A stretch of DNA of 64,000 nt. It comes from Ignavibacteria bacterium. Its GTDB lineage: Bacteria > Bacteroidota > Ignavibacteria > UBA10030 > SZUA-254. How positions within the stretch are numbered: position 1 is the first letter of the stretch; every line of letters starts with the position of its first letter. The position numbers were made by a program, and so were the translations under genes. Shown piece by piece: positions 50,519 to 64,000 of the stretch. The stretch lies in NCBI GenBank assembly GCA_016178595.1, contig JACOSY010000027.1, positions 1 to 64,000 on the forward strand, read 5' to 3'. The notes beneath the pieces were generated by a model. The model had not been told where the DNA came from. It searched no databases and saw nothing but the letters and a program-made list of their open reading frames with translations.

Positions 50519-51841
50519 TCAATGTGCCGGGAGGAAGATAGTAAACTTCGTTCCATGCCCCGGTTGAGATTCAACAAGGATTTCGCCTCGATGATTCTGT
50601 ATAATTTTCCTGCATATCGGCAGACCAAATCCGTGACCGTTGGGTTTCGTTGTAATCTTCTCGACGAATAACTTTTCCTTAACAACCGGATCAAGCCCCG
50701 GACCATCATCCACAACCAGAATCTTTGCCATGTTGTGAACGAAATCATACTCGGTGGCAATTGTAATCGTCGCGTGATCGCAGGCTTCGATCGCATTATT
50801 TGTAAGATTGAGGAGAACCTGCTGCAATTGATCACTGTTGGCCTCCACAATTGGAAGCTCGTCGTCGCATTTCAAGACGATATTGCCACGGCGATACTTC
50901 GGTAAGTGGTGAATAAACGACACGAATTTTTTCAATTGTTCATTGAGCTGAAGTTCCTGCAATTCGGTTACTGAGCTCCCCGATCGAACAAGAAGATTCT
51001 CAGCAAAACTACCGATTCTCCTGATACTTTCCACGAGGTCATTGAGCAACTTCTCGCTACCGTTCTTGTCATCTCGTTTGAACGCGCGTTGGAAGGATTG
51101 TGCCTGCAAAAGCGAAATGTTCAGGATGTTGTTAAGCTCATGGCTTACCTCTGCAGCCATTTCACCTCTCAGTACCATGCGCTCTGAAGCAATAATATGC
51201 TCATTGGCTTCTTTCAATTCCTCATACGTCCGCTTCAAATCTTCATACAACCGGGCATTGTGGATAGCAATGGCTGCTTGACCGGCAAGTATTTCAAATA
51301 GCCGAAGTATTTCAGCCCGATTGATCGCCTGGATGTAGCGGCTGTCGACATAGATCACTCCGATGGAAGCATCGTGCGTTTTCAACGGTGCACAGAGAAT
51401 CGTTTGCAGTGCAAGATCCACGACACTCCTGCGCTGCTCGAACCGTTCATCGTGAAGAGCATCCTCGACACACATCGATTCGCCCGTTCGAAACACATCT
51501 TCCAAGACGCTGCTACTGATCTGAAAACTCTCCGGATGAATTACCTTCCCTTCCCTATCAAGGCCATTCATATATTGCAGAGCACCTGTTGAGTCCGCAA
51601 GCATAATGAACCCGCGTTCAGCTCGGGTGATCCGGATGGCATGATCGAGCACCAGCGACAGCACATCCGAAAGAACAAGGGAGGTATTGATCTTACGTGT
51701 AATGCTCAATACCATTTCGAGATCCTGAGCGCGGCTACCGTATATTGGGGCTACTGTATCCGCTGACACTCGATGTCCCGAATCGGGTACTTTCTCTATA
51801 TTGACGCTTTGATTCTCGGAGAGTATTTCATTGAGCTTCAT
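50519..51841 (-). CDS. Soluble GAF-domain sensor histidine kinase (440 aa)
   Basis: N-terminal GAF domain (~45-195: DVLSLVLDHAIRITRAERGFIML, APLKTHDASIGVIYVDSR), a coiled coil, then the kinase core. The phospho-acceptor His234 lies in EVSHELNNIL, the N box is NLTNNAIEA, G1 is VVDDGPGLD and G2 HGFGLPIC. No membrane helix, so it senses a cytoplasmic signal. ATG 51841 overlaps the TPR gene's stop. No response regulator gene is adjacent, except that the sigma-54 activator at 53983 has a receiver-like domain and could be its partner. Confidence 0.88.
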   Translation of the reverse strand: MKLNEILSENQSVNIEKVPDSGHRVSADTVAPIYGSRAQDLEMVLSITRKINTSLVLSDVLSLVLDHAIRITRAERGFIMLADSTGALQYMNGLDREGKVIHPESFQISSSVLEDVFRTGESMCVEDALHDERFEQRRSVVDLALQTILCAPLKTHDASIGVIYVDSRYIQAINRAEILRLFEILAGQAAIAIHNARLYEDLKRTYEELKEANEHIIASERMVLRGEMAAEVSHELNNILNISLLQAQSFQRAFKRDDKNGSEKLLNDLVESIRRIGSFAENLLVRSGSSVTELQELQLNEQLKKFVSFIHHLPKYRRGNIVLKCDDELPIVEANSDQLQQVLLNLTNNAIEACDHATITIATEYDFVHNMAKILVVDDGPGLDPVVKEKLFVEKITTKPNGHGFGLPICRKIIQNHRGEILVESQPGHGTKFTIFLPAH

Positions 51842-53106
51842 CAGCTTTCTCCCTTCACGTTTTTCTCCAACAAGTTCAGTTGATGACAAACTTCGTCAAG
51901 TCCTACGAGCACGCCAGCTTTCTCAAAGCACTGTTTTGCCACTCTCAATGCGATGGTTGCGCAAATCCAGCGCTTTCTGTTCTTCTCCATTATCCCAAGT
52001 TCATAATACGTCTCGCCAAGATTTAACAGGCTGTTGTATTCGGTGTTGATCCGAATGCTTGATTGGAAATACGTCGTTGCGGATTCGTACTCCTTCATCT
52101 CGCGGAGGATCATTCCTTTAACTTTGTAGGTATCAGCGATGCTCAACCGATCATCGACAAGCTTAAATTGTCTCAGTGCCTGGTTACAGAGTGCAAGTGC
52201 GAGGGCTAAGTCGTTCTGTTGGAGATATATGTTTGCCTTACCGAGCTGCGCAATTCCTATGAGGCCGGGATTTTTTACAAGCGATGAAAATTCGAGGCTC
52301 CGATCGAACGACCGAAGTGCAGAGAGATAGTTCTTCTTTGACAGATGCGACATTCCAATGTTATGATGTACCTCGGCGATGCGTGTTAATTCACCTGATT
52401 CCTCGAACAATGAGAGCGCGCGTTGGTACAGCGTGAGTGCCTCATTCCAGTTTCCAATAATATTGTGGACAATACCAAGATTCATGAAGATCATTGCCGT
52501 AAGAGGGCGTTGATTCGAACGCTCTGCGCTCCGCAGCGCTTTCGTGAAGGATTCTCTCGCTTCAGTGAGAAATCCTTGTTCGACATAGCTCGTTCCAAGA
52601 ATATTTTCAACCTTCGCGAGAGTTGATACATCACCCGATTTCTCAGAGAGTGCACGACACGTTACTAAATCTCGAGTCGAATCCATCCACTTTCCCTGCC
52701 GACTGTAAATATCCCCACGGTGCAACAATGCTTCGGTAGTAAATCCATCACTCTTGATCTTTTGACCGTACACAATAACTCGACCAAATATCGATTCTGC
52801 ATGATCAAATTCACCATGTGATTTGTAAATACTCCCAATGCCAAGGAGAACCTGAAGATACTCGCTTTCCTTGAGAGTAGATTGACATAGCGTCAGCAAA
52901 TGATCAAGCGATCCGTACTCTTGAGATACAAATTCCTGCTCTGCAGAAACACTTCCGGGCGCACTACCCACAGTCTCAAGAACCCTTCTCTCAGTTCGCT
53001 GTGCATTTTCTTGATCTGCCCGGAATTCCACGATGGCTTTGGGTCCGCAGTACAGTTCAGCGAACTGCAAGATTTCTTTGTAAATCGTTTTATCGTTGCC
53101 GGTCAT
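51841..53106 (-). CDS. TPR-repeat protein (421 aa)
   Basis: At least seven TPR pairs from about residue 80 to 400, for example YLQVLLGIGSIYKSHGEFDHAESIF, AMIFMNLGIVHNIIGNWNEALTLYQRAL, AEVHHNIGMSHLSKKNYLSALRSF and YNSLLNLGETYYELG. The pattern resembles Rap/PlcR-like and LGN-type tandem TPR sensors that bind peptides or partner proteins. No signal peptide. Start-stop overlap with the histidine kinase suggests they work together. The TPR array is similar in style to the C-terminal half of the kinase at 55407. Confidence 0.85.
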   Translation of the reverse strand: MTGNDKTIYKEILQFAELYCGPKAIVEFRADQENAQRTERRVLETVGSAPGSVSAEQEFVSQEYGSLDHLLTLCQSTLKESEYLQVLLGIGSIYKSHGEFDHAESIFGRVIVYGQKIKSDGFTTEALLHRGDIYSRQGKWMDSTRDLVTCRALSEKSGDVSTLAKVENILGTSYVEQGFLTEARESFTKALRSAERSNQRPLTAMIFMNLGIVHNIIGNWNEALTLYQRALSLFEESGELTRIAEVHHNIGMSHLSKKNYLSALRSFDRSLEFSSLVKNPGLIGIAQLGKANIYLQQNDLALALALCNQALRQFKLVDDRLSIADTYKVKGMILREMKEYESATTYFQSSIRINTEYNSLLNLGETYYELGIMEKNRKRWICATIALRVAKQCFEKAGVLVGLDEVCHQLNLLEKNVKGES

Positions 53107-53148: not shown

Positions 53149-53757
53149 TCAGCGGCCAAACGCGTATCGAGAAAAGTGCGGAACCTGGCAATTCGTCGCT
53201 GATAAATCTCCCAAGAGCGAGAGTGAGATATTCGCTGGCAACAGCGTGAATACCCCTTCCTCGTTATCGTACCAGAAATTCAAGATCGAGCTTATAAGGG
53301 TAAGATTCGTGGCACTGTACCCCAATACCGCAGATCTTTCAAAGACCAGTCCTTCAGGCTGAAAGCGAACAGCACAGTATGCAGTATCAAGTGTCATGGT
53401 AATCATTTGGTCTCTCGTAAGCGCGTTAGCCGGTATCATCAGACTTGCATTGACATCGACCGTCTTTCCTGCTTGAGAGACGTATGAGAATTTTGCGACT
53501 AATGTTCCGCCGGTATTTGCCGAGACCGACTGAGTCACCGAAACCTGGGGCTTGCTCGTCTTTGCTGCAGGTAAATTTTGTAAGGTAACACCCGAGGTGA
53601 GATTGTCGATGATATTGGATACCATCGCCGGGTGAGTTGCTTTTTGTTGTGTTTCCATCAGTGGCTCGACTACTGAACTATCGTTACATCCACTCAGGAA
53701 ACCTATCCCAACACACAAACAGAGTGTAGAAACAAAGAACAATACTGCTTTTTTCAT
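53149..53757 (-). CDS. Surface/periplasmic lipoprotein, ZU5-like domain (202 aa)
   Basis: Lipoprotein signal ending FLSGC. From about residue 80 the sequence resembles ZU5-type surface domains: NTGGTLVAKFSYVS, DVNASLMIPANALTRDQMITMTLD, VRFQPEGLVFERSAVLGYSATNL and the closing CQVPHFSRYAFG. It lacks catalytic motifs. It heads the lipoprotein-TPR-histidine kinase unit and has a candidate sigma-54 promoter and upstream palindrome. It could be the output or the surface sensor of the system; this is inference. Confidence 0.7.
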   Translation of the reverse strand: MKKAVLFFVSTLCLCVGIGFLSGCNDSSVVEPLMETQQKATHPAMVSNIIDNLTSGVTLQNLPAAKTSKPQVSVTQSVSANTGGTLVAKFSYVSQAGKTVDVNASLMIPANALTRDQMITMTLDTAYCAVRFQPEGLVFERSAVLGYSATNLTLISSILNFWYDNEEGVFTLLPANISLSLLGDLSATNCQVPHFSRYAFGR

Positions 53758-53820: not shown

Positions 53821-53837
53821 TACAAAGGCCATGCCAA
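53821..53837 (-). promoter_or_regulatory. Candidate sigma-54 promoter of the lipoprotein-TPR-HK unit
   Basis: Minus strand TTGGCATGGCCTTTGTA: compared with the consensus TGGCACG-N4-TTGCA it matches except C to T at two places; the -24 GG and -12 TG spacing is right. No good TATATT promoter is seen here. Confidence 0.5.
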
Positions 53838-53943
53838 TCGACCGATGTATCAAATGCATTCGACTATTGCATGTTTTCAGTTGATATTGAAAGTGAGTGA
53901 GTGTAGTCCATCATGATGTGTAACAATTCATACCAACAAAAAT

Positions 53944-53958
53944 GTAACGATACGTTAC
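53944..53958. promoter_or_regulatory. Operator-like palindrome GTAAC-N5-GTTAC
   Basis: GTAAC, GATAC, GTTAC, extended by one base each side (TGTAAC ... GTTACA). Centre about 115 bp upstream of the sigma-54 candidate's -24 box, the usual place of an enhancer. A weaker half-site lies at 53920-53934. Confidence 0.65.
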
Positions 53959-53982: not shown

Positions 53983-55410
53983 TTAGTTATTGGCTGTTGC
54001 CAGAATCCGATCCAACCGAGGCCTCGATATTCGCATGATGGCAGCGGCTTTACTCTTATTTCCACCTACATGATTCAAAACATTAAGTGCAAGCCGTAGT
54101 TGAACGTCCTCCAATGCCGCTTCCGCTAAAGAGATTGTAAATGTAAGGGTTGAATCCTTATGTATCGGATGTAGAACATTACCATTCGATCGATTTTCAT
54201 ACTCCACACCGTTTAACATACCACGAGTGTTGAGAAAATCAAAATCTTTTTCGGTGAGCCATTCTTGCTCTTCAAGCAATACGGCACGCTCTATTGTATG
54301 TTTAAGTTCCCGGACATTTCCCTCCCACTCGTGATCCGTGAGGAGATCCAGCGCCTCAGGCGTCGTCCCACAGATGCTCTTACCGTAGATGCCATTGAAT
54401 AATCTGACAAACGAATCGACAAGTGACAATATATCACCTCTTCGCTCTCGAAGAGGTGGAATTTCCAGCGGAATAATCTTCAAACGATGATAGAGATCTT
54501 TTCTAAACTGACCGGATTTCATCTTCGCAGTGAGATCAACGCTTGTCGCCGCAACGATTCTCCCTTTGACGGGAATATCCTTCAATCCACCGAGCCTTCG
54601 CATGGTACGGCTTTCGATAACCTTCAGGAGCTTTGATTGCATGGCAAGTGAAATATCGCCGATCTCATCGAGGAAGATTGTCCCGTCGCCCGCCAGTTCG
54701 AACAGCCCGAGCTTCTTCTCCCGAGCGTCGGTGAATGCACCTTTCTCGAAGCCGAAGAGCTCTGATTCCAGCAGTGTTTCAGGAAGTGCCGAGCACGCAA
54801 TATCAACGAATGGCGAATTGCCGTTCTTGCTGTTGTAGTGAATTGCACGTGCAAGGAGTTCTTTCCCTGTTCCCGTCTCACCGGTAATGAGTACCGTCAT
54901 GAGTGGGTTGTCGATGACTTTCTTTGCACGGTCGAGTACTCCACGAAGGCTCTCTGATTCTCCGATGATCTGGTTGAAATCGTACGCTTTGTGCTGGAGG
55001 TCAATAAACCGTTGTTGCGCTTGCATCGTCTGCCAGTGATCTTCCATTGTATTGACTTGTTCACTCAACTGTCGCGCATCGCCTGGAAGCGCATAGTACT
55101 CGCTCGCTCCGCAACTCATGGCATCAACTGCATCGCGGTGACTCACTGACGATGCAACCATGAATACAGAGACATCATTGAATTGCAGGCGGAACGTCGC
55201 CAACATATCCTGGAGGAGATATTTTTCGAACGAAGCATCGATGAGCACGAGGTGCGGCGCGGTGAAGATCGCGCGGCTCATAAGAAACCGCGGAGAAGAT
55301 GTATACTGAATGTGAATAGTATCGGATTTTGCTACAATCTGTCTGATAATGTCAGCGAACTCCGTTTTGATACAGACGAGGATTTTGAATTTGTTTTGTG
55401 GTATTTTCAT
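53983..55410 (-). CDS. Sigma-54 activator with receiver-like N-terminus (475 aa)
   Basis: NtrC-type layout: receiver-like domain 1-125 with Asp58 in LVLIDASF (the dimer-pocket acidic pair is not evident, so phosphorylation is uncertain); AAA+ domain with Walker A GETGTGKE (177-184), contact loop GAFTDA (224-229; usual GAFTGA) and Walker B-like GTIFLDEIGD; and a Fis-type HTH at the end (HVGGNKSKAAAIMRISRPRLDRIL). The start overlaps the kinase gene's stop (ATGA), so they are translationally coupled. It likely binds the GTAAC-N5-GTTAC palindromes. Confidence 0.88.
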   Translation of the reverse strand: MKIPQNKFKILVCIKTEFADIIRQIVAKSDTIHIQYTSSPRFLMSRAIFTAPHLVLIDASFEKYLLQDMLATFRLQFNDVSVFMVASSVSHRDAVDAMSCGASEYYALPGDARQLSEQVNTMEDHWQTMQAQQRFIDLQHKAYDFNQIIGESESLRGVLDRAKKVIDNPLMTVLITGETGTGKELLARAIHYNSKNGNSPFVDIACSALPETLLESELFGFEKGAFTDAREKKLGLFELAGDGTIFLDEIGDISLAMQSKLLKVIESRTMRRLGGLKDIPVKGRIVAATSVDLTAKMKSGQFRKDLYHRLKIIPLEIPPLRERRGDILSLVDSFVRLFNGIYGKSICGTTPEALDLLTDHEWEGNVRELKHTIERAVLLEEQEWLTEKDFDFLNTRGMLNGVEYENRSNGNVLHPIHKDSTLTFTISLAEAALEDVQLRLALNVLNHVGGNKSKAAAIMRISRPRLDRILATANN

Positions 55411-58400: not shown

Positions 58401-59030
58401 GGTCGCACCGAGCGAATACAGGTCCAATCTCCTGTCGGGTGATTTTCCTTGGAGAAGCTCCGGAGCAATGTATTCGACAGTGCCGCGCAAAGACGGAAAT
58501 TCGGCTGATCGTGAGGTTGTAATACTAAAGCCGAAATCCGTCAACTTGACATGGATTGAGGGCAGTGATCCTTCGTGCAATTTAGTTGGCCGAAGGATGA
58601 ATATGTTTTGCGGTTTGATGTCGTAATGGATGATGTCACACCGGTGAATGGAATCGAGTGTGACGAGGACCTGGACGAGCGTCTCTTCCAGCAATCTTAC
58701 CTTCGTTGCATCGTGCGGCATTGCCTGAAAGTACTGCATAGCATCACACCCATCGAGGTATTCCATGGTGTAGTAATATCGATCAAGTAACTGCAAGGTG
58801 TCGCTCGATTCGCTCACTTTCCCAAACTCGAACACGCGCATGAGATTAGGGTGTTCAAACCGTCTGAGGATCTCAAATTCTTTCCGAATATTTACTTCAT
58901 CGACTGATCGGGTGGAATTGAGAATTTTTATCGCGATATTTGAATCGGCGGTTTTATCATGAGCAAGGTACACTTCACCCGAACCACCTTCGCCAAGTTT
59001 CCTGACAATCTCGTACCGACCGTTAATCAT
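55407..59030 (-). CDS. Large Ser/Thr protein kinase with P-loop (STAND-like) region and TPR array (1207 aa)
   Basis: Kinase domain ~1-285: Gly-rich GEGGSGEVYLA, Lys35 in NIAIKIL, catalytic loop IIHYDIKPQN (HYD instead of HRD), DFG in LTDFGFS and YIAPELL. A P-loop ATPase begins FVGREREKEIV with Walker A EASSGGGKTAF (~330) and resembles AAA_16/STAND regulators. From ~640 to 1190, about a dozen TPRs follow (for example VTALNNIGNVFSAMGEARSALDSW). This is the architecture of PknK/MalT-like signal integrators. ATG 59030 with GGAGG before it overlaps the permease stop by 8 bases. The link to a transporter operon is unusual. Confidence 0.88.
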   Translation of the reverse strand: MINGRYEIVRKLGEGGSGEVYLAHDKTADSNIAIKILNSTRSVDEVNIRKEFEILRRFEHPNLMRVFEFGKVSESSDTLQLLDRYYYTMEYLDGCDAMQYFQAMPHDATKVRLLEETLVQVLVTLDSIHRCDIIHYDIKPQNIFILRPTKLHEGSLPSIHVKLTDFGFSITTSRSAEFPSLRGTVEYIAPELLQGKSPDRRLDLYSLGATFYYLWENRFPHRGETPIEVMKNALTTAFPRFEDRNNIVSPLPEIVATLCQKNPDERYQSARDVLMQFASSGLEERIKEYLVQASCGIFVGREREKEIVQKEIRHFKESAEAHRKVILVEASSGGGKTAFLREIAKNAIVDGLLIVHISAGSHDDPPLTDCLRRLHDPSHLRPLLILADGWTTLHQEVRREITELLASAWQNGEKIMLVLAESDDRDCELPFPPDEPVTTVLLNELSQADIGVLFDFAFGQEIVPTGYVEKFFAVYGGNPRIVHEAIRLLIHALPLSTLKERSSFMDMNAEFERSFADTLVGLFVARIKNLRRDKCILLEILSCFDCAPERNLLKVVVPFHEDRLEEFLCSLTRSGFVRSSEDETRYSLRHLSLKNNLYSSLSEAERRSLHQLIAQRWCESSENPTGEDLHELGRQCERGGSVEKAGAYYEVSGDRAFGEKKYVDACERYADALRCQGNDTAKIFHLRVMLARGYAASGGDTDSARIYKEILGNLPEDDSKKMGIAKELGKVLVRLGENLEAIRILEDALRLSMDTANRFEISEELISLKITEGSLDEAIMMGKVQKELAQSFPDRQQLALVETDIGIAQFYKGSFQDSIESFNRAFHIYRDYGYEEKMVTALNNIGNVFSAMGEARSALDSWNRALRLTMESPMKHERGLLHNNIGIAHYKLQEYSEARSNYDEAQRIFSELKAKNGLAFSLTNYGEVEYAEGLYECAHTRWVQALEMYREMQDALGVGQTLLELAHVNTTIGRFSVVRDYLEEAHQAIAAQQLLSLVPLYHYLKGQLYASLEYYHEALQAFRQSEKQYQANDRAFTGGIETVSEKLVEISFRKAEADLASHKFDESLNILNADNDTAQTLSRRLAAELYYILGRIARERLKRGKLNGIVDKPIMYFRHSLDLLEEEHVTELTWKVSYALGQEYEQRGNSEKAREHYKAAHVVIEYFRSKFSSEELGTMYLKSDKRIEVAHTLEAGIPKLSEGIIKP

Positions 59031-60393
59031 TCCCGCCTCCATGATGTCCACCTTGGATTCCATACTGAAGCCGCTCTGCGCAACGGTTCACAGAGAGAAC
59101 AACAAGCGTAAGAGCGATGCCCGGGAACATACTTACCCACCATCCGCGTTCGAGATACGCAAGAGATTCACCGATCATATTTCCCAAGCTCGGTGTCGGG
59201 GGCTGGATACCGAGTCCCAGAAAACTCAACGACGCCTCTGCGAGAATGACGTTACCGAATTGAAGCACGGCGGCAACAACAACTGTTGGGAAAATGTTGG
59301 GAATGATATGGTTCATTGTAATGTGAACGGTTGATCTCCCAAGCATACGTGCCGCAAGAATGAATTCTCTTTCACGGAGCGCGATCACTTCTCCACGGAC
59401 CATCCGAGCGACACTCATCCATCCAGTCGCACCGAGAACAAGGATAAGAAGCAGCGTCGAGTTACCGAAAAAAGCGATAATCGCGATAACCAAGAATAGC
59501 GACGGAACCGCAAGTAATAGATCGACCATTCGCATCAAAACGTGATCGATCCACCTTTTGTTTGAAAATCCCGCAACTATGCCGATCACCGTTCCAATGA
59601 TGAGAGAGAGAACCATTGCACACGATCCTACAAACAACGTGATCCTCATCCCGTAAAGCACACGGCTGAAAACATCTCTTCCAAGATTATCGGTTCCGAA
59701 GAGAAAGGCAACCGACACCATACCACTCTGTGATGAATTGTCTCGAACATCCTGGCCGGCAATTTCAATGCGCTCATTCCCTCGGAAGAGGTTGATATTC
59801 GCTTCATCAAACAAATTTCGAAATTCCGCACTCATTTCATCCGTTCGATCTTCACCTGACGCTGAGCGTTCTGAAGATGCGAAAGCAGAAGATGAAACAT
59901 AGGCTCTCTCCATCGGTTTCAGAAGGCGCATCGTCCGAAGATCACCCTGTGACGATGGATCATAGGGAGCGAACAGGGGTGCTTCCAGCGCTATGATAAC
60001 GTAGGTAACGACAAGCCAGAAATCGGCCTTCATTGCGCTCGATAATTGAGGACGTCGAGCGGGGTAAAAAAATCGATCACGATTTCCATTCTCTCCTCTC
60101 CGATGAGACCCGACCAATATTCTCACGAGCATTCCAACAACAATCATCCAGACAATCGCTGCAACCCAATATTCAACAAGAGCGCTCCAGCGAATCGATG
60201 TTCCCGATTCTCCCATAGAGGTAACGAGAACCGGCACTGCAAGAACAATGGATAGAATGCTCGACCATAAGAATTTCCATCTCCAGCACGAGACGACAAC
60301 GACACAAATTGCAAGAAAAATACATCGCCCGTGGAAGGCGGTGATCAGCGTCTTTTCTGACCTCTGTTCTTCCGTGTATGCGTTCCTATTCAT
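59023..60393 (-). CDS. Peptide-type ABC transporter permease, DppC-like with extra N-terminal region (456 aa)
   Basis: The C-terminal ~270 residues are a standard DppC/OppC permease: FLFGTDNLGRDVFSRVLYGMRITLFVG, then the EAA loop GEVIALREREFILAARMLGRSTVHITMNHIIPNI and ILAEASLSFLGLGIQPPTPSLGNMI. Typical members have ~300 residues. Here ~125 residues with about three additional membrane helices precede, and a polar Ser/Asp/Glu-rich segment of ~75 residues separates the first DppC helix (LAPLFAPYDP) from the core. ATG 60393 overlaps the upstream permease stop. Confidence 0.85.
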   Translation of the reverse strand: MNRNAYTEEQRSEKTLITAFHGRCIFLAICVVVVSCWRWKFLWSSILSIVLAVPVLVTSMGESGTSIRWSALVEYWVAAIVWMIVVGMLVRILVGSHRRGENGNRDRFFYPARRPQLSSAMKADFWLVVTYVIIALEAPLFAPYDPSSQGDLRTMRLLKPMERAYVSSSAFASSERSASGEDRTDEMSAEFRNLFDEANINLFRGNERIEIAGQDVRDNSSQSGMVSVAFLFGTDNLGRDVFSRVLYGMRITLFVGSCAMVLSLIIGTVIGIVAGFSNKRWIDHVLMRMVDLLLAVPSLFLVIAIIAFFGNSTLLLILVLGATGWMSVARMVRGEVIALREREFILAARMLGRSTVHITMNHIIPNIFPTVVVAAVLQFGNVILAEASLSFLGLGIQPPTPSLGNMIGESLAYLERGWWVSMFPGIALTLVVLSVNRCAERLQYGIQGGHHGGGND

Positions 60394-61361
60394 GTCTCCA
60401 CTCTCGGGTCGATCAACATGTACAGTACATCCGCAAGGCAATTCCCCAAAATGACGACCGCCCCCGCAACGACGGTGCAACCCATGATGAGAGGATAATC
60501 CCGGGAGACGATCGCCATCACGGCAAGGCGTCCCATGCCCGGCCACGCATACATGGTTTCTGTGACCAAGGCTCCAGTGAGCAACGTGCCAAGTTCAAGT
60601 CCAAGGAGCGTTACGACGGGTCCAACGGCATTGGGAAGTTCGTACGAAAGGAATACCTTCCGCCGCGGTACACCAAAACTCGTGGCGTAGGTGAGATATT
60701 CTTCATGTTGAAGCTTGATGAGACTCGCACGAAAATACCGGGTCAACGCCGCAGTGCCCGGGATAGCGACCGTTATCGCGGGAAGGATGAGATGCTTGAT
60801 GAAATCAATAGTACGTTCATTGAACGCAAGACGCTCGGCGCCGATAGAAAACATCTGAGATGAGGGCAACAGGCCGAGAGCGTACGAGAAGACTGCGAGC
60901 AATACAATTCCAATCCAAAATGTCGGAAGGGTGAAGAGAACCATACTACCGCTCGAAACACACCGATCGAGAAAGCTTCCTTCATGGCGTGCAGCCATCA
61001 GTCCAATGAACAGTCCAAGGACAAGTTCAATAACTATTGCAACCAGGGCGAGGACGATGGTATTTGGCAAAAACGTTGCAACGAGTTCTCCGACCGGACG
61101 TCCGTGGCTGATAGAAACTCCAAAATTACCGACAAGGCAATTTCTCATCCATTCTGTGAATTGCACATGAAGCGGCTTGTCCAAACCGAAATGCTCTCGC
61201 ACCTCTGCTGCAACCGAAGCGGAAACCCTGGGAGAGAGCGTAGACAGAATAGGATCTCCTGGTGCGGCGTGAGCTATAATAAAAACGAGCGAAAGGAGGC
61301 ATAGCACAAGGAGTACTCCGGTAATCATCCGCTTAATTGTAAAGTACACAATATCGATCAT
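60390..61361 (-). CDS. Peptide-type ABC transporter permease, DppB-like (323 aa)
   Basis: Six membrane helices with DppB marks: HAAPGDPI after the first helix, HFGLDKPLHVQFTEWMRNCLVGNFGVSISHGRPV, the EAA loop YFRASLIKLQHEEYLTYATSFGVPRRKVFLSYELPNAVGPVVTLLGLELGTLLTGALVTE-type segment and a final AVVILGNCLADVLYMLIDPRV. It pairs with the DppC-like permease. ATG at 61361; a GTG 4 codons earlier is possible. It lies 65 bases after the binding-protein gene. Confidence 0.9.
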   Translation of the reverse strand: MIDIVYFTIKRMITGVLLVLCLLSLVFIIAHAAPGDPILSTLSPRVSASVAAEVREHFGLDKPLHVQFTEWMRNCLVGNFGVSISHGRPVGELVATFLPNTIVLALVAIVIELVLGLFIGLMAARHEGSFLDRCVSSGSMVLFTLPTFWIGIVLLAVFSYALGLLPSSQMFSIGAERLAFNERTIDFIKHLILPAITVAIPGTAALTRYFRASLIKLQHEEYLTYATSFGVPRRKVFLSYELPNAVGPVVTLLGLELGTLLTGALVTETMYAWPGMGRLAVMAIVSRDYPLIMGCTVVAGAVVILGNCLADVLYMLIDPRVET

Positions 61362-61426
61362 AGTTCGGTCCACTACAATTGCCGCCCGGACGTCCGGAAA
61401 ATTTTCTCATCGATGATCATACGCAC

Positions 61427-63160
61427 TTACTCAAGGTACCAGTCACCAGCTTGGTACGAAATACCAAGAACGCCGATCTGCGTTCCCTTGACCCGTTTAT
61501 TCACTGCTACAAGATCGTTCATCCAGTACAAGAATGTGCAGGGTTGCTCATTCTGCAAGATGACTTGAAATTCTTTCCATGCATCTGCATTTTCTTTTTC
61601 ATTTTCCACTAACTTTGCTTTCGCCAAAATCTTGGCAACACGTTCATTCTGAAAGCTTGTGAGATTGAAGCGCGACTTTTCCAGATCGCTTCCCCAAAGC
61701 TCGTCGAGTTGCATTTGGAGCGGTACGGTAAATCCGGCGATACAAGCGTCAAAATTTTTTTCCATAATGTCGTTCCAGAACACTGCGCGCTCGATCTGTT
61801 CGATTTTTACATTGATCTTTACCGCTTTGAGTTGATTTTGCACAATAGTGGCGATCTCCGATCGTAACTGACTCCCTGATGGAATTTTAAGCGTAAATGA
61901 AAACAAATGCCCGCCGCGATCCAATATCCCATCGCCATCAGAATCATGCCATCCCTCTTCGGCGAGTAACGCACTTGCCTCGCGAGGGTTGAATGGCAGC
62001 GGCTTCAGTGTATCGTTGTACGCCCAACGAAAGATAGGAGAGATCGGACCAATGGCCTCGCGTCCGTATGCTTTGAGATAGGAATCGACGATTTCCTTGC
62101 GGTTGATAGCCATTGTTAAGGCACGGCGGACTGTGGAATTGCTAAAGAGCAGATGAGGAACTATCTTTTTTCCCTTTGATTTCTTAAAGACATCCGAATC
62201 AATGTTATTCCAGTTGATTGCATCGTAGAAACGCTCGCCCAAGGATTGAACATTGATGTTCGAGTCGTTCTGTGCGAGTTGCAGTGCATCTTCAACATTG
62301 ATGTAGGGGAAAACATCGATCTCACCAGAGGCAAGCTGCATAAGACGAGAATGGTAGTCTGGTATAATGCGGTAGATCAACCCTGAGAGTTTCGCAGGAT
62401 ACGGAAGCACAGACGACTGATTCGCTTCAAGTTCAATTTGCTGCATTGCTTTCCACGATTTAAGCTTAAACGGTCCGGCACTTAACGGCCAATGATTTAG
62501 GGGACTTTCTTTGAGCGATTCCCGATGTAGCGTGCTATCAAACGCATGCGCAGGCAAAATTGGAAGCCCAGCATCAAAGAGCTGGCCTGGATAGGGATGG
62601 TCGAAGTGGAAAAGTACAGTGCTATCATTGATGATTTCGACTGCCTCTGCAATCCGTATTGTTCCGTCCTTCGATTTTCGAAGCCCTTCTACCGACGTCT
62701 GCCGAACGCTCGCAACGTTGGTATCAGCATAGAGCTCGTACGATATCTGTACGTCCCGCGCGGTTAATGTAACACCATCTGACCACCGCAACCCTTGCTT
62801 GATATGAAACCTAATGTCCTTTCCGCCATTTTCAAACTCCCATGATTGCGCAACGAGAGGATGGTATTCTAAAAAGCCTATTGTTTGATTGAAGTTAGAA
62901 CTCGTAAGAGCCGGGTAAAAGAGATCATTTATCTCACCTGCAGTTACATCCTCGGCAAAGAGAGGGCAAAAGCTATCGATATCACCTTCCACTCCAACGA
63001 CAACGTAACCGCCCGCGCTCGTTCCACTTGGATAACTCTTTGCGTCCTTCTTCCGAGAGCAACCGACCAAGAGCATTGTGAGGATCAAGAAACTCAATAC
63101 GATGTTCGGAGGAGCAATGCGACAGTACAACCGCATGATTTTATCGTTGTGTGAATGCAT
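61427..63160 (-). CDS. Peptide/solute-binding lipoprotein, SBP family 5 (577 aa)
   Basis: Lipoprotein signal ending MLLVGC, then the family-5 extracellular solute-binding fold (DppA/OppA type): GLRWSDGVTLTARDVQISYELYAD, LILPAHAF-like segment, YRIIPDYHSRLMQLASGEIDVF, NSTVRRALTMAINRKEIVDSYL and ALLAEEGWHDSDGDGILDRGG. Ligands of this family are peptides, nickel, sugars or signal molecules; none can be named here. ATG 63160 has AAGGAA upstream. First gene of the minus-strand operon into the kinase and sigma-54 activator. Confidence 0.88.
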   Translation of the reverse strand: MHSHNDKIMRLYCRIAPPNIVLSFLILTMLLVGCSRKKDAKSYPSGTSAGGYVVVGVEGDIDSFCPLFAEDVTAGEINDLFYPALTSSNFNQTIGFLEYHPLVAQSWEFENGGKDIRFHIKQGLRWSDGVTLTARDVQISYELYADTNVASVRQTSVEGLRKSKDGTIRIAEAVEIINDSTVLFHFDHPYPGQLFDAGLPILPAHAFDSTLHRESLKESPLNHWPLSAGPFKLKSWKAMQQIELEANQSSVLPYPAKLSGLIYRIIPDYHSRLMQLASGEIDVFPYINVEDALQLAQNDSNINVQSLGERFYDAINWNNIDSDVFKKSKGKKIVPHLLFSNSTVRRALTMAINRKEIVDSYLKAYGREAIGPISPIFRWAYNDTLKPLPFNPREASALLAEEGWHDSDGDGILDRGGHLFSFTLKIPSGSQLRSEIATIVQNQLKAVKINVKIEQIERAVFWNDIMEKNFDACIAGFTVPLQMQLDELWGSDLEKSRFNLTSFQNERVAKILAKAKLVENEKENADAWKEFQVILQNEQPCTFLYWMNDLVAVNKRVKGTQIGVLGISYQAGDWYLE

Positions 63161-63188
63161 TACAATTCCTTTCCAAAAAGTCGCTCTC

Positions 63189-63217
63189 AATCTAAATAAA
63201 TCGGTAGGGTTTGTCAA
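63189..63217 (-). promoter_or_regulatory. Promoter of the transporter-kinase-activator operon
   Basis: Minus strand TTGACA (63217-63212), 17-bp spacer, TAGATT (63194-63189). Expected start about 63182, placing the two palindromes at about -51 and -70. Confidence 0.6.
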
Positions 63218-63225
63218 TGACGACA

Positions 63226-63240
63226 GTAACATTATGTTAC
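63226..63240. promoter_or_regulatory. Operator-like palindrome GTAAC-N5-GTTAC (site 1)
   Basis: GTAAC, ATTAT, GTTAC. Same form as the site at 53944-53958. Confidence 0.7.
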
Positions 63241-63244
63241 ATGT

Positions 63245-63259
63245 GTCACATTCCGTTAC
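63245..63259. promoter_or_regulatory. Operator-like palindrome GTCAC-N5-GTTAC (site 2)
   Basis: GTCAC, ATTCC, GTTAC, one mismatch from the palindrome; 19 bp centre to centre from site 1. Confidence 0.65.
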
Positions 63260-63266
63260 AGCCATA

Positions 63267-63295
63267 TTGATCTTTGCCTCGAATTTGATTACACT
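63267..63295 (+). promoter_or_regulatory. Divergent promoter of the ATPase gene
   Basis: TTGATC at 63267-63272, 17-bp spacer, TACACT at 63290-63295. Expected start about 63302, so the same palindromes lie at about -50 and -69. Confidence 0.55.
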
Positions 63296-63330
63296 GACAG
63301 TACGATGACATCACGGAAAAAGGATGATGT

Positions 63331-64000
63331 GTGAGTTTACTCGAACTTAGAAACGTAAGTGTCAAACGCGTGATCGATCAAAACGCCCGTTTTCTCAACA
63401 AGGGTGTTTCTCTCTCAGTCGATCGAGGCGAAGTTGTCGCAATCGTCGGAGAAAGCGGAAGTGGAAAAACTACTCTCCTTCGCTCGATTCCTCAACTACT
63501 TCCTTTCAACGCAGGAATGGTTACAGAAGGATCCATCGAATTTCAAGGAGAGAATATCCTCCGCATGAGCCAAAAAAGATTACAGATGCTGCGACAAAAT
63601 ACAGTGCGCTCAATTTTCCAAGAGCCGGGCATCGTTTTTAATCCTGTTTCACGAATTTCCACCCAAGTCGGGATCCTGATTGCATCATTTGGTAACAGCG
63701 GTAAACAGGAGTTTTCTGATTGTTTAATAGAATTGGGCATGGATAAACCGGATGAAGTATTGAGATCATATCCTCATCAAATGAGCGTTGGCATGCTGCA
63801 GCGTATCTCGATCGCTCTCGCCGTCGCTTCACATCCTGCACTTATTCTGGCGGACGAACCAACTAGTGCCATCGATGCGATTCACCGGTCGCGTGCCTTG
63901 CGCCTTCTCGCCAATCACAGCAAGATATTTGGAGCGGCGCTCCTTCTCACCACACATGATTTGTGCGTCGCTCGAAAGTATGCTGACGTCGTTATTGTTA
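63331..64000 (+). CDS. Peptide-type ABC transporter ATP-binding protein, DppD/OppD-like (partial)
   Basis: Reads open from GTG at 63331 (AAGGATGAT upstream) to the end of the window, 223 codons. Walker A GESGSGKTTLL (~residue 39); Q-loop IFQEPGIVFNPVSRISTQVG typical of DppD/OppD; signature region YPHQMSVGMLQRISIALAVA, with SVGM where SGGM is usual; Walker B LILADEPTSAIDA; and H-loop LLTTHD. It would energise the two permeases encoded in the opposite direction. A second ATPase (DppF-like) may follow outside the window. Confidence 0.9.
   Translation, partial: MSLLELRNVSVKRVIDQNARFLNKGVSLSVDRGEVVAIVGESGSGKTTLLRSIPQLLPFNAGMVTEGSIEFQGENILRMSQKRLQMLRQNTVRSIFQEPGIVFNPVSRISTQVGILIASFGNSGKQEFSDCLIELGMDKPDEVLRSYPHQMSVGMLQRISIALAVASHPALILADEPTSAIDAIHRSRALRLLANHSKIFGAALLLTTHDLCVARKYADVVIV

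Follow-up and report, generated by a model that had tools for sequence, protein, structure and literature searches.

A palindromic motif shared by a predicted sigma54 enhancer and a divergent pair of sigma70-type promoters suggests feedback by an NtrC-type regulator in an Ignavibacteria transporter cluster

Introduction

Bacterial enhancer-binding proteins (EBPs) bind about 100–150 bp upstream of sigma54 promoters (PMC7057263), and some of them also act on sigma70-type promoters of their own. Bound at its enhancer sites, PspF exerts negative control over the sigma70 promoter of its own gene (PMC3709507). NtrC of Sinorhizobium meliloti represses its own ntrBC operon as well as another sigma70-type promoter (PMC10746234), and the binding sequence of DVU2106 overlaps the sigma70 promoter of its own gene, forming a negative loop (PMC3897727).

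The window analysed here is a 64-kb stretch of a 3.1-Mb Ignavibacteria genome, carrying a transporter gene cluster with an EBP gene. A text search of the literature returned nothing on this Ignavibacteria cluster. The locus resembles the pspF/pspA region of E. coli in that one EBP would combine sigma54 activation with negative control of its own sigma70 promoter. In PspF, however, the same enhancer sites do both tasks, while here the divergent sigma70 promoters flank a separate operator pair, 9.3 kb away from the predicted enhancer. With DVU2106 of the Desulfovibrio vulgaris orp operons (PMC3897727, PMC4641369) it shares a GAFTDA-type EBP, palindromic sites and divergent operons, but the divergent operons of DVU2106 are sigma54-driven whereas the divergent promoters here look sigma70-type. 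NtrC, which likewise represses the operon that encodes it, is comparable to the proposed circuit in this respect but differs in its operator (TGC-N11-GCA) and its classical two-component input. On the sequence evidence, the cluster appears to add a well-supported case to a type of feedback circuit already familiar from bacteria.

Organization of the gene cluster

The minus-strand operon consists of genes for a solute-binding lipoprotein, two permeases, a kinase/STAND/TPR protein and the EBP, which overlap or are closely spaced (Table 1). The EBP gene is the last of these and is followed, after a gap of 225 bp, by genes for a small lipoprotein, a TPR protein and a GAF-type histidine kinase. The two ATPase genes face the opposite way, and the second lies beyond the end of the window. 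The genome also contains rpoN.

Table 1. Positions of genes, operators and promoters in the window and on its contig (C23), with the loci of related lipoprotein-like genes
Feature	Position	Strand	Remarks
GAF-HisKA-HATPase histidine kinase	50519-51889		after TPR gene
TPR protein	51841-53106	-	Pfam TPR
Small lipoprotein, first gene of proposed sigma54 unit	53149-53757	-	Pfam: no match
Lipoprotein-like genes compared	53149-53757 (here); L009 16392-18390; L090 1484-2776; L089 2628-3227		
Sigma54 box TTGGCATGGCCTTTGTA	53821-53837	-	about 128 bp downstream of operator 3
Possible weak second upstream-activating site GTAACAATTCATACC	53920-53934		start 24 bp from operator 3; matrix rank 5
Operator 3, GTAACGATACGTTAC, proposed upstream activating sequence	53944-53958		second exact genome copy
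NtrC-type enhancer-binding protein (EBP)	53983-55410	-	Pfam PF00158, E 6.4e-63
Ser/Thr kinase - STAND-like NTPase - TPR protein, 1218 aa	55407-59063	-	Pfam Pkinase, weak nSTAND_NTPase5, TPR
Permease 2	59023-60546	-	Pfam PF00528; true start probably within ORF
Permease 1	60390-61373	-	Pfam PF00528 + PF19300
Solute-binding lipoprotein, SBP_bac_5	61427-63160	-	Pfam PF00496, E 2.8e-69
Minus-operon sigma70-like promoter	63189-63217	-	TTGACA (63217-63212)-N17-TAGATT (63194-63189)
Operator 1, GTAACATTATGTTAC	63226-63240		perfect 15-bp palindrome GTAACAT-T-ATGTTAC (GTAAC-N5-GTTAC)
Operator 2, GTCACATTCCGTTAC	63245-63259		GTCAC-N5-GTTAC
ATPase-gene sigma70-like promoter	63267-63295	+	TTGATC (63267-63272)-N17-TACACT (63290-63295)
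ATPase 1	63331-64000, on to C23:64290	+	Pfam ABC_tran
ATPase 2	C23:64272-65039	+	reading frame; after ATPase 1

The divergent region and its conservation

A preliminary description of this DNA had placed two palindromes symmetrically between divergent transporter promoters, and rereading of the sequence found both exactly where claimed. If transcription starts 7 nt past the -10 boxes (at about 63182 on the minus and about 63302 on the plus strand), the centre of operator 1 lies at -51 from the minus and -69 from the plus start, and that of operator 2 at -50 from the plus and -70 from the minus start, in agreement with the distances given earlier. The minus promoter was detected by the promoter scan (10/12), while the plus promoter is weaker (8/12) and falls under the cut-off of that scan. 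Between operator 1 and the minus -35 box there are 8 bp, and the plus -35 box begins 7 bp past the 34-bp cassette formed by the two operators. No sigma54 box (TGGCAC-N5-TTGCA) was found on either strand of the divergent region in this genome and two relatives, the best fits being 7-8/12.

Relatives, mostly metagenome assemblies, were recovered by alignment of binding proteins; a scan of genome contigs with a single EBP sequence returned none. The nearest named ones are Ignavibacteria assemblies from groundwater and fen. A search of 15 genomes of family f1 gave close binding-protein orthologues in G004 (64%) and G005 (62%), which represent two other genera of the family and both possess divergent ATPase genes and the cassette. 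Between this genome (G000) and G004 the cassette is identical at 30 of 34 positions, against 19 of 40 in the adjoining 40-bp right flank. Two sigma70-like promoters with a 17-bp spacer are present in all three genomes: the minus promoter, 7 bp from operator 1 in both relatives, reads TTGACA-N17-TAGATT in G004 and TTGATT-N17-TACATT in G005, and the plus promoter, 7 bp after the cassette, TTGAAA-N17-TACAAT and TTGTAT-N17-TACAAT, respectively. Operator 1 is kept in both relatives. Operator 2 is kept in G004 but has decayed in G005, where its right arm is lost and the position of the -35 box is unchanged. An exact search of the 15 family genomes with GTWAY-N5-GTTAC-N4-RTCAC returned the three orthologous loci only; as the pattern was fitted to these loci, this shows rarity and is no independent test. 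Near-matches to the longer cassette in G006 and on contig C53 of this genome (L029, L041) are mostly intragenic, with no such EBP adjoining, and were set aside.

The preliminary description had looked to conservation at orthologous transporters. Sites, spacing and promoters are indeed retained in the nearest genera, apart from operator 2 of G005, but conservation of the divergent cassette ends with family f1, and it was not found in families f4, f5 and f6. Family f5 orthologues have divergent sigma70-like promoters (recognized by eye) without it. In family f4 (G040, L020/L072; G041, L022/L074) the binding-protein gene apparently follows directly on an ATPase gene that is read in the same direction, which leaves no divergent promoter; G040 nevertheless keeps a predicted EBP enhancer after its EBP gene.

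A matching site after the EBP gene

A genome-wide scan for GTAAC-N5-GTTAC, which had been proposed as a check, gave only two exact copies, 63226 and 53944, both in the transporter cluster. The latter is absent from the preliminary description, as is the sigma54 box downstream of it; 53944 would be the more typical enhancer site for an EBP. Operator 3 sits between the EBP stop codon and the small lipoprotein gene. Read on the minus strand, GTAACGTATCGTTAC is followed by the sigma54 box TTGGCATGGCCTTTGTA, which matches the layout of a palindrome some 100–150 bp upstream of a -24/-12 sigma54 promoter. Boxes that fit better are found at the same place in G004 (CTGGCATACCCATTGCA) and G076 (CTGGCACACGCTTTGCA).

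With at most one mismatch the motif occurs 4 times in the window against 0.59 expected, a number reached by none of 100 shuffles. The whole genome has 39 such places against 111 for the reversed control, which is no enrichment. Of 20 other genomic near-matches that were read, 18 lie in long open frames and 2 are possibly intergenic, with no sigma54 box near any of the 20. An exact GTAACGNNNCGTTAC is present at 8 positions across 98 genomes of the order, and 5 of these lie directly after orthologues of this EBP. Others (L059, L060, L063) are mostly intragenic and none is beside an EBP of this family.

The region past the EBP stop codon was read in 16 orthologous loci. In other families of the order, palindromes like GTAACGNNNCGTTAC follow this stop codon, often 100–150 bp upstream of a sigma54 box; boxes at about this distance occur in G000, G040, G076 and several f5 genomes. 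Ahead of its box, G076 carries GTAACGAAACGTTAC, in one orientation or the other, as three strong copies at 23-bp intervals; G040 has GTAACGAATCGTTAC and then TGGCACACCGATTGC, and several f5 genomes have sites like GGAACGTTTTGTTCC followed by boxes like TGGCATAGGAATTGC. Over the 150 bp after the EBP stops of non-f1 genomes, GTAAC/GTTAC arms with a 5-bp spacer give a summed mismatch of 27, whereas other spacers give 43–52 and the lowest of 1000 shuffles reaches 39. Of the 16 loci, about half have a weak or unrecognisable site (at least 3 mismatches, or no better than shuffles), and it is degenerate or unrecognisable in G004, G013, G055, G056, G057, G061, G041 and G084.

A matrix was built from ten sites after EBP orthologues of families f4, f5 and f6 only, and applied to the window and the fetched loci, the remaining genome being covered by pattern search. 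Of all 15-mers in the 64-kb window it ranks 53944 first, 63226 second and 63245 third, a result that is independent of the letters of the window but not of the idea, since the ten sites were chosen by motif. In G004 and G005 a site in the divergent region ranks first. The two operators of the divergent region thus carry the same motif as the predicted EBP enhancer, differing in the inner bases, which are AT..AT at 63226 and CG..CG in the predicted enhancer sites. The earlier suggestion that a single regulator serves operators 1 and 2 is probably right. The most likely binder of all three, judged by motif and position, is the EBP itself, which had already been put forward for footprinting and now has strong independent support from the motif found after its orthologues in other families.

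Properties of the EBP

The protein has a receiver-like N-terminal domain, an AAA+ sigma54-interaction domain with a GAFTDA loop that is conserved in the orthologues, and a Fis-type HTH; its structure model resembles NtrC1 and NtrX. The GAFTDA variant is listed as compatible with sigma54 activation and is present in DVU2106 (PMC4641369); sigma54 was absent from a pull-down with one GAFTDA protein (PMC10714721). The HTH (PF02954, E 3.1e-4) scores 20.8 bits, slightly under the curated cut-off of 22, its helices lie at 433–474 in the model, and the motif SRPRL(D/N/E)RI is conserved in 16 of 16 orthologous loci, unlike in the paralogues inspected. In the model (moderate confidence, mean pLDDT 70) the strands and helices of the N-terminal domain follow one another in a receiver-like order, but the domain has no Pfam receiver match. 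By eye, it lacks the acidic pair and the conserved lysine, and f4 and f6 orthologues have Glu at the position of the would-be phospho-acceptor Asp. The kinase/STAND/TPR neighbour would be a natural candidate for switching the EBP on.

In G005 the downstream part of the cluster, EBP gene included, was not recovered in searches with the TPR protein and with the EBP; the contig there breaks off within the kinase gene, which fits this result, as loss would equally. The EBP match in G013 (L053; L090 3039-4340) has two TGA codons and a late-starting open frame, which suggests that its N-terminal part is disrupted or misassembled. Otherwise G013 possesses the kinase-EBP-lipoprotein-TPR block.

Proposed circuit and alternatives

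The explanation we consider fairly probable is that the EBP binds all the operators, as an enhancer at 53944 and in feedback, most likely negative, on the divergent sigma70 promoters. EBP dimers would bind GTAAC-N5-GTTAC. At 53944 they would act as enhancer of a sigma54 promoter driving the lipoprotein gene and probably the TPR gene, and at 63226 and 63245 they would act on both back-to-back sigma70 promoters, setting jointly the operon for binding protein, permeases, kinase and EBP and the divergent ATPase genes. What the sequences show directly is the sites, their geometry, their conservation in three genera and the occurrence of the motif beside this EBP in other families; binding, transcription starts and sign of control are inferred. 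The EBP is encoded in the operon that starts at the divergent region, and binding there would consequently be feedback. The joint control of two transporter units proposed earlier is partly supported, although the minus unit is not a transporter unit alone, as it also carries the kinase/STAND/TPR and EBP genes. Since f5 has a matching enhancer and no operators in the divergent region, the feedback would be peculiar to family f1.

The sign of regulation is less clear-cut. The preliminary description called the EBP an activator; its part as regulator is likely, but at promoters that look sigma70-type, in a region without a sigma54 box, autorepression is at least as likely as activation. As EBP feedback is negative in the published cases of PspF, NtrC and DVU2106, repression at the divergent promoters is mildly favoured by analogy, while their mirror symmetry suits an activator equally. 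As the predicted sites at -51 and -70 are clear of the -35 boxes, repression by straightforward steric hindrance is not evident.

A possible but less probable alternative is that the same EBP directly activates both sigma70 promoters from -51 and -70, as a positive feedback switch; this corresponds to the joint switching of the preliminary description. Mirror symmetry would give each promoter an equivalent proximal site, the spacing to the -35 boxes is held at 7–8 bp in three genera, and the -10 boxes TAGATT and TACACT are, by eye, weaker than the TATATT and TATTAT of operator-less f5. On the other hand, the canonical EBP target is the sigma54 polymerase rather than that of sigma70, there is so far no evidence of EBP contact with the alpha C-terminal domain (PMC7057263), and where published cases were found of an EBP acting on the sigma70 promoter of its own gene, the control is negative. 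Extended to a self-contained, transport-coupled circuit, in which direct activation of two mirror-symmetric sigma70 promoters makes an all-or-none switch of the transporter halves, the activator explanation is doubtful; its parts would be a peptide-type importer, a kinase/STAND/TPR sensor and an EBP whose receiver-like domain may have lost phosphorylation.

It is distinctly unlikely that a different regulator binds the divergent region, for example a direct-repeat binder, with the likeness to the enhancer coincidental. The plus strand of the cassette does contain four units of the GTNACAT type (GTAACAT, GTTACAT, GTCACAT and GTTACAG) at 10-, 9- and 10-bp steps. However, the foreign EBP-site matrix selects the very positions of the two operators and ranks the shifted position 63236 only 11,476th, for which reason the direct-repeat reading was placed below the dimer reading, and no second DNA-binding protein was identified among the genes scanned from the transporter to the histidine kinase. 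That the palindromes are chance or non-regulatory is highly improbable: the lack of genome-wide enrichment would suit it, but the fitted cassette pattern is confined to three orthologous loci, identity peaks over the cassette, and the independent matrix selects both sites.

On comparative grounds, an operator and a very small regulon can be assigned to an uncharacterised EBP family of Ignavibacteria. The proposal makes a clean prediction, namely that a single EBP serves a sigma54 promoter as well as a symmetric sigma70 promoter pair. It also connects a set of small lipoproteins and a kinase/STAND/TPR protein with a peptide-type transporter.

Lipoprotein-like genes also follow the EBP gene in G004, G013 and G076, and the order EBP, lipoprotein, TPR, GAF-type kinase was also seen by eye in G076 (L089). 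The encoded proteins are not alike in sequence, and their number is one here, two in G013 and three, in tandem, in G004; they nevertheless have a common end like HFSRYGFGR, which probably forms the final strand of an Ig-like domain.
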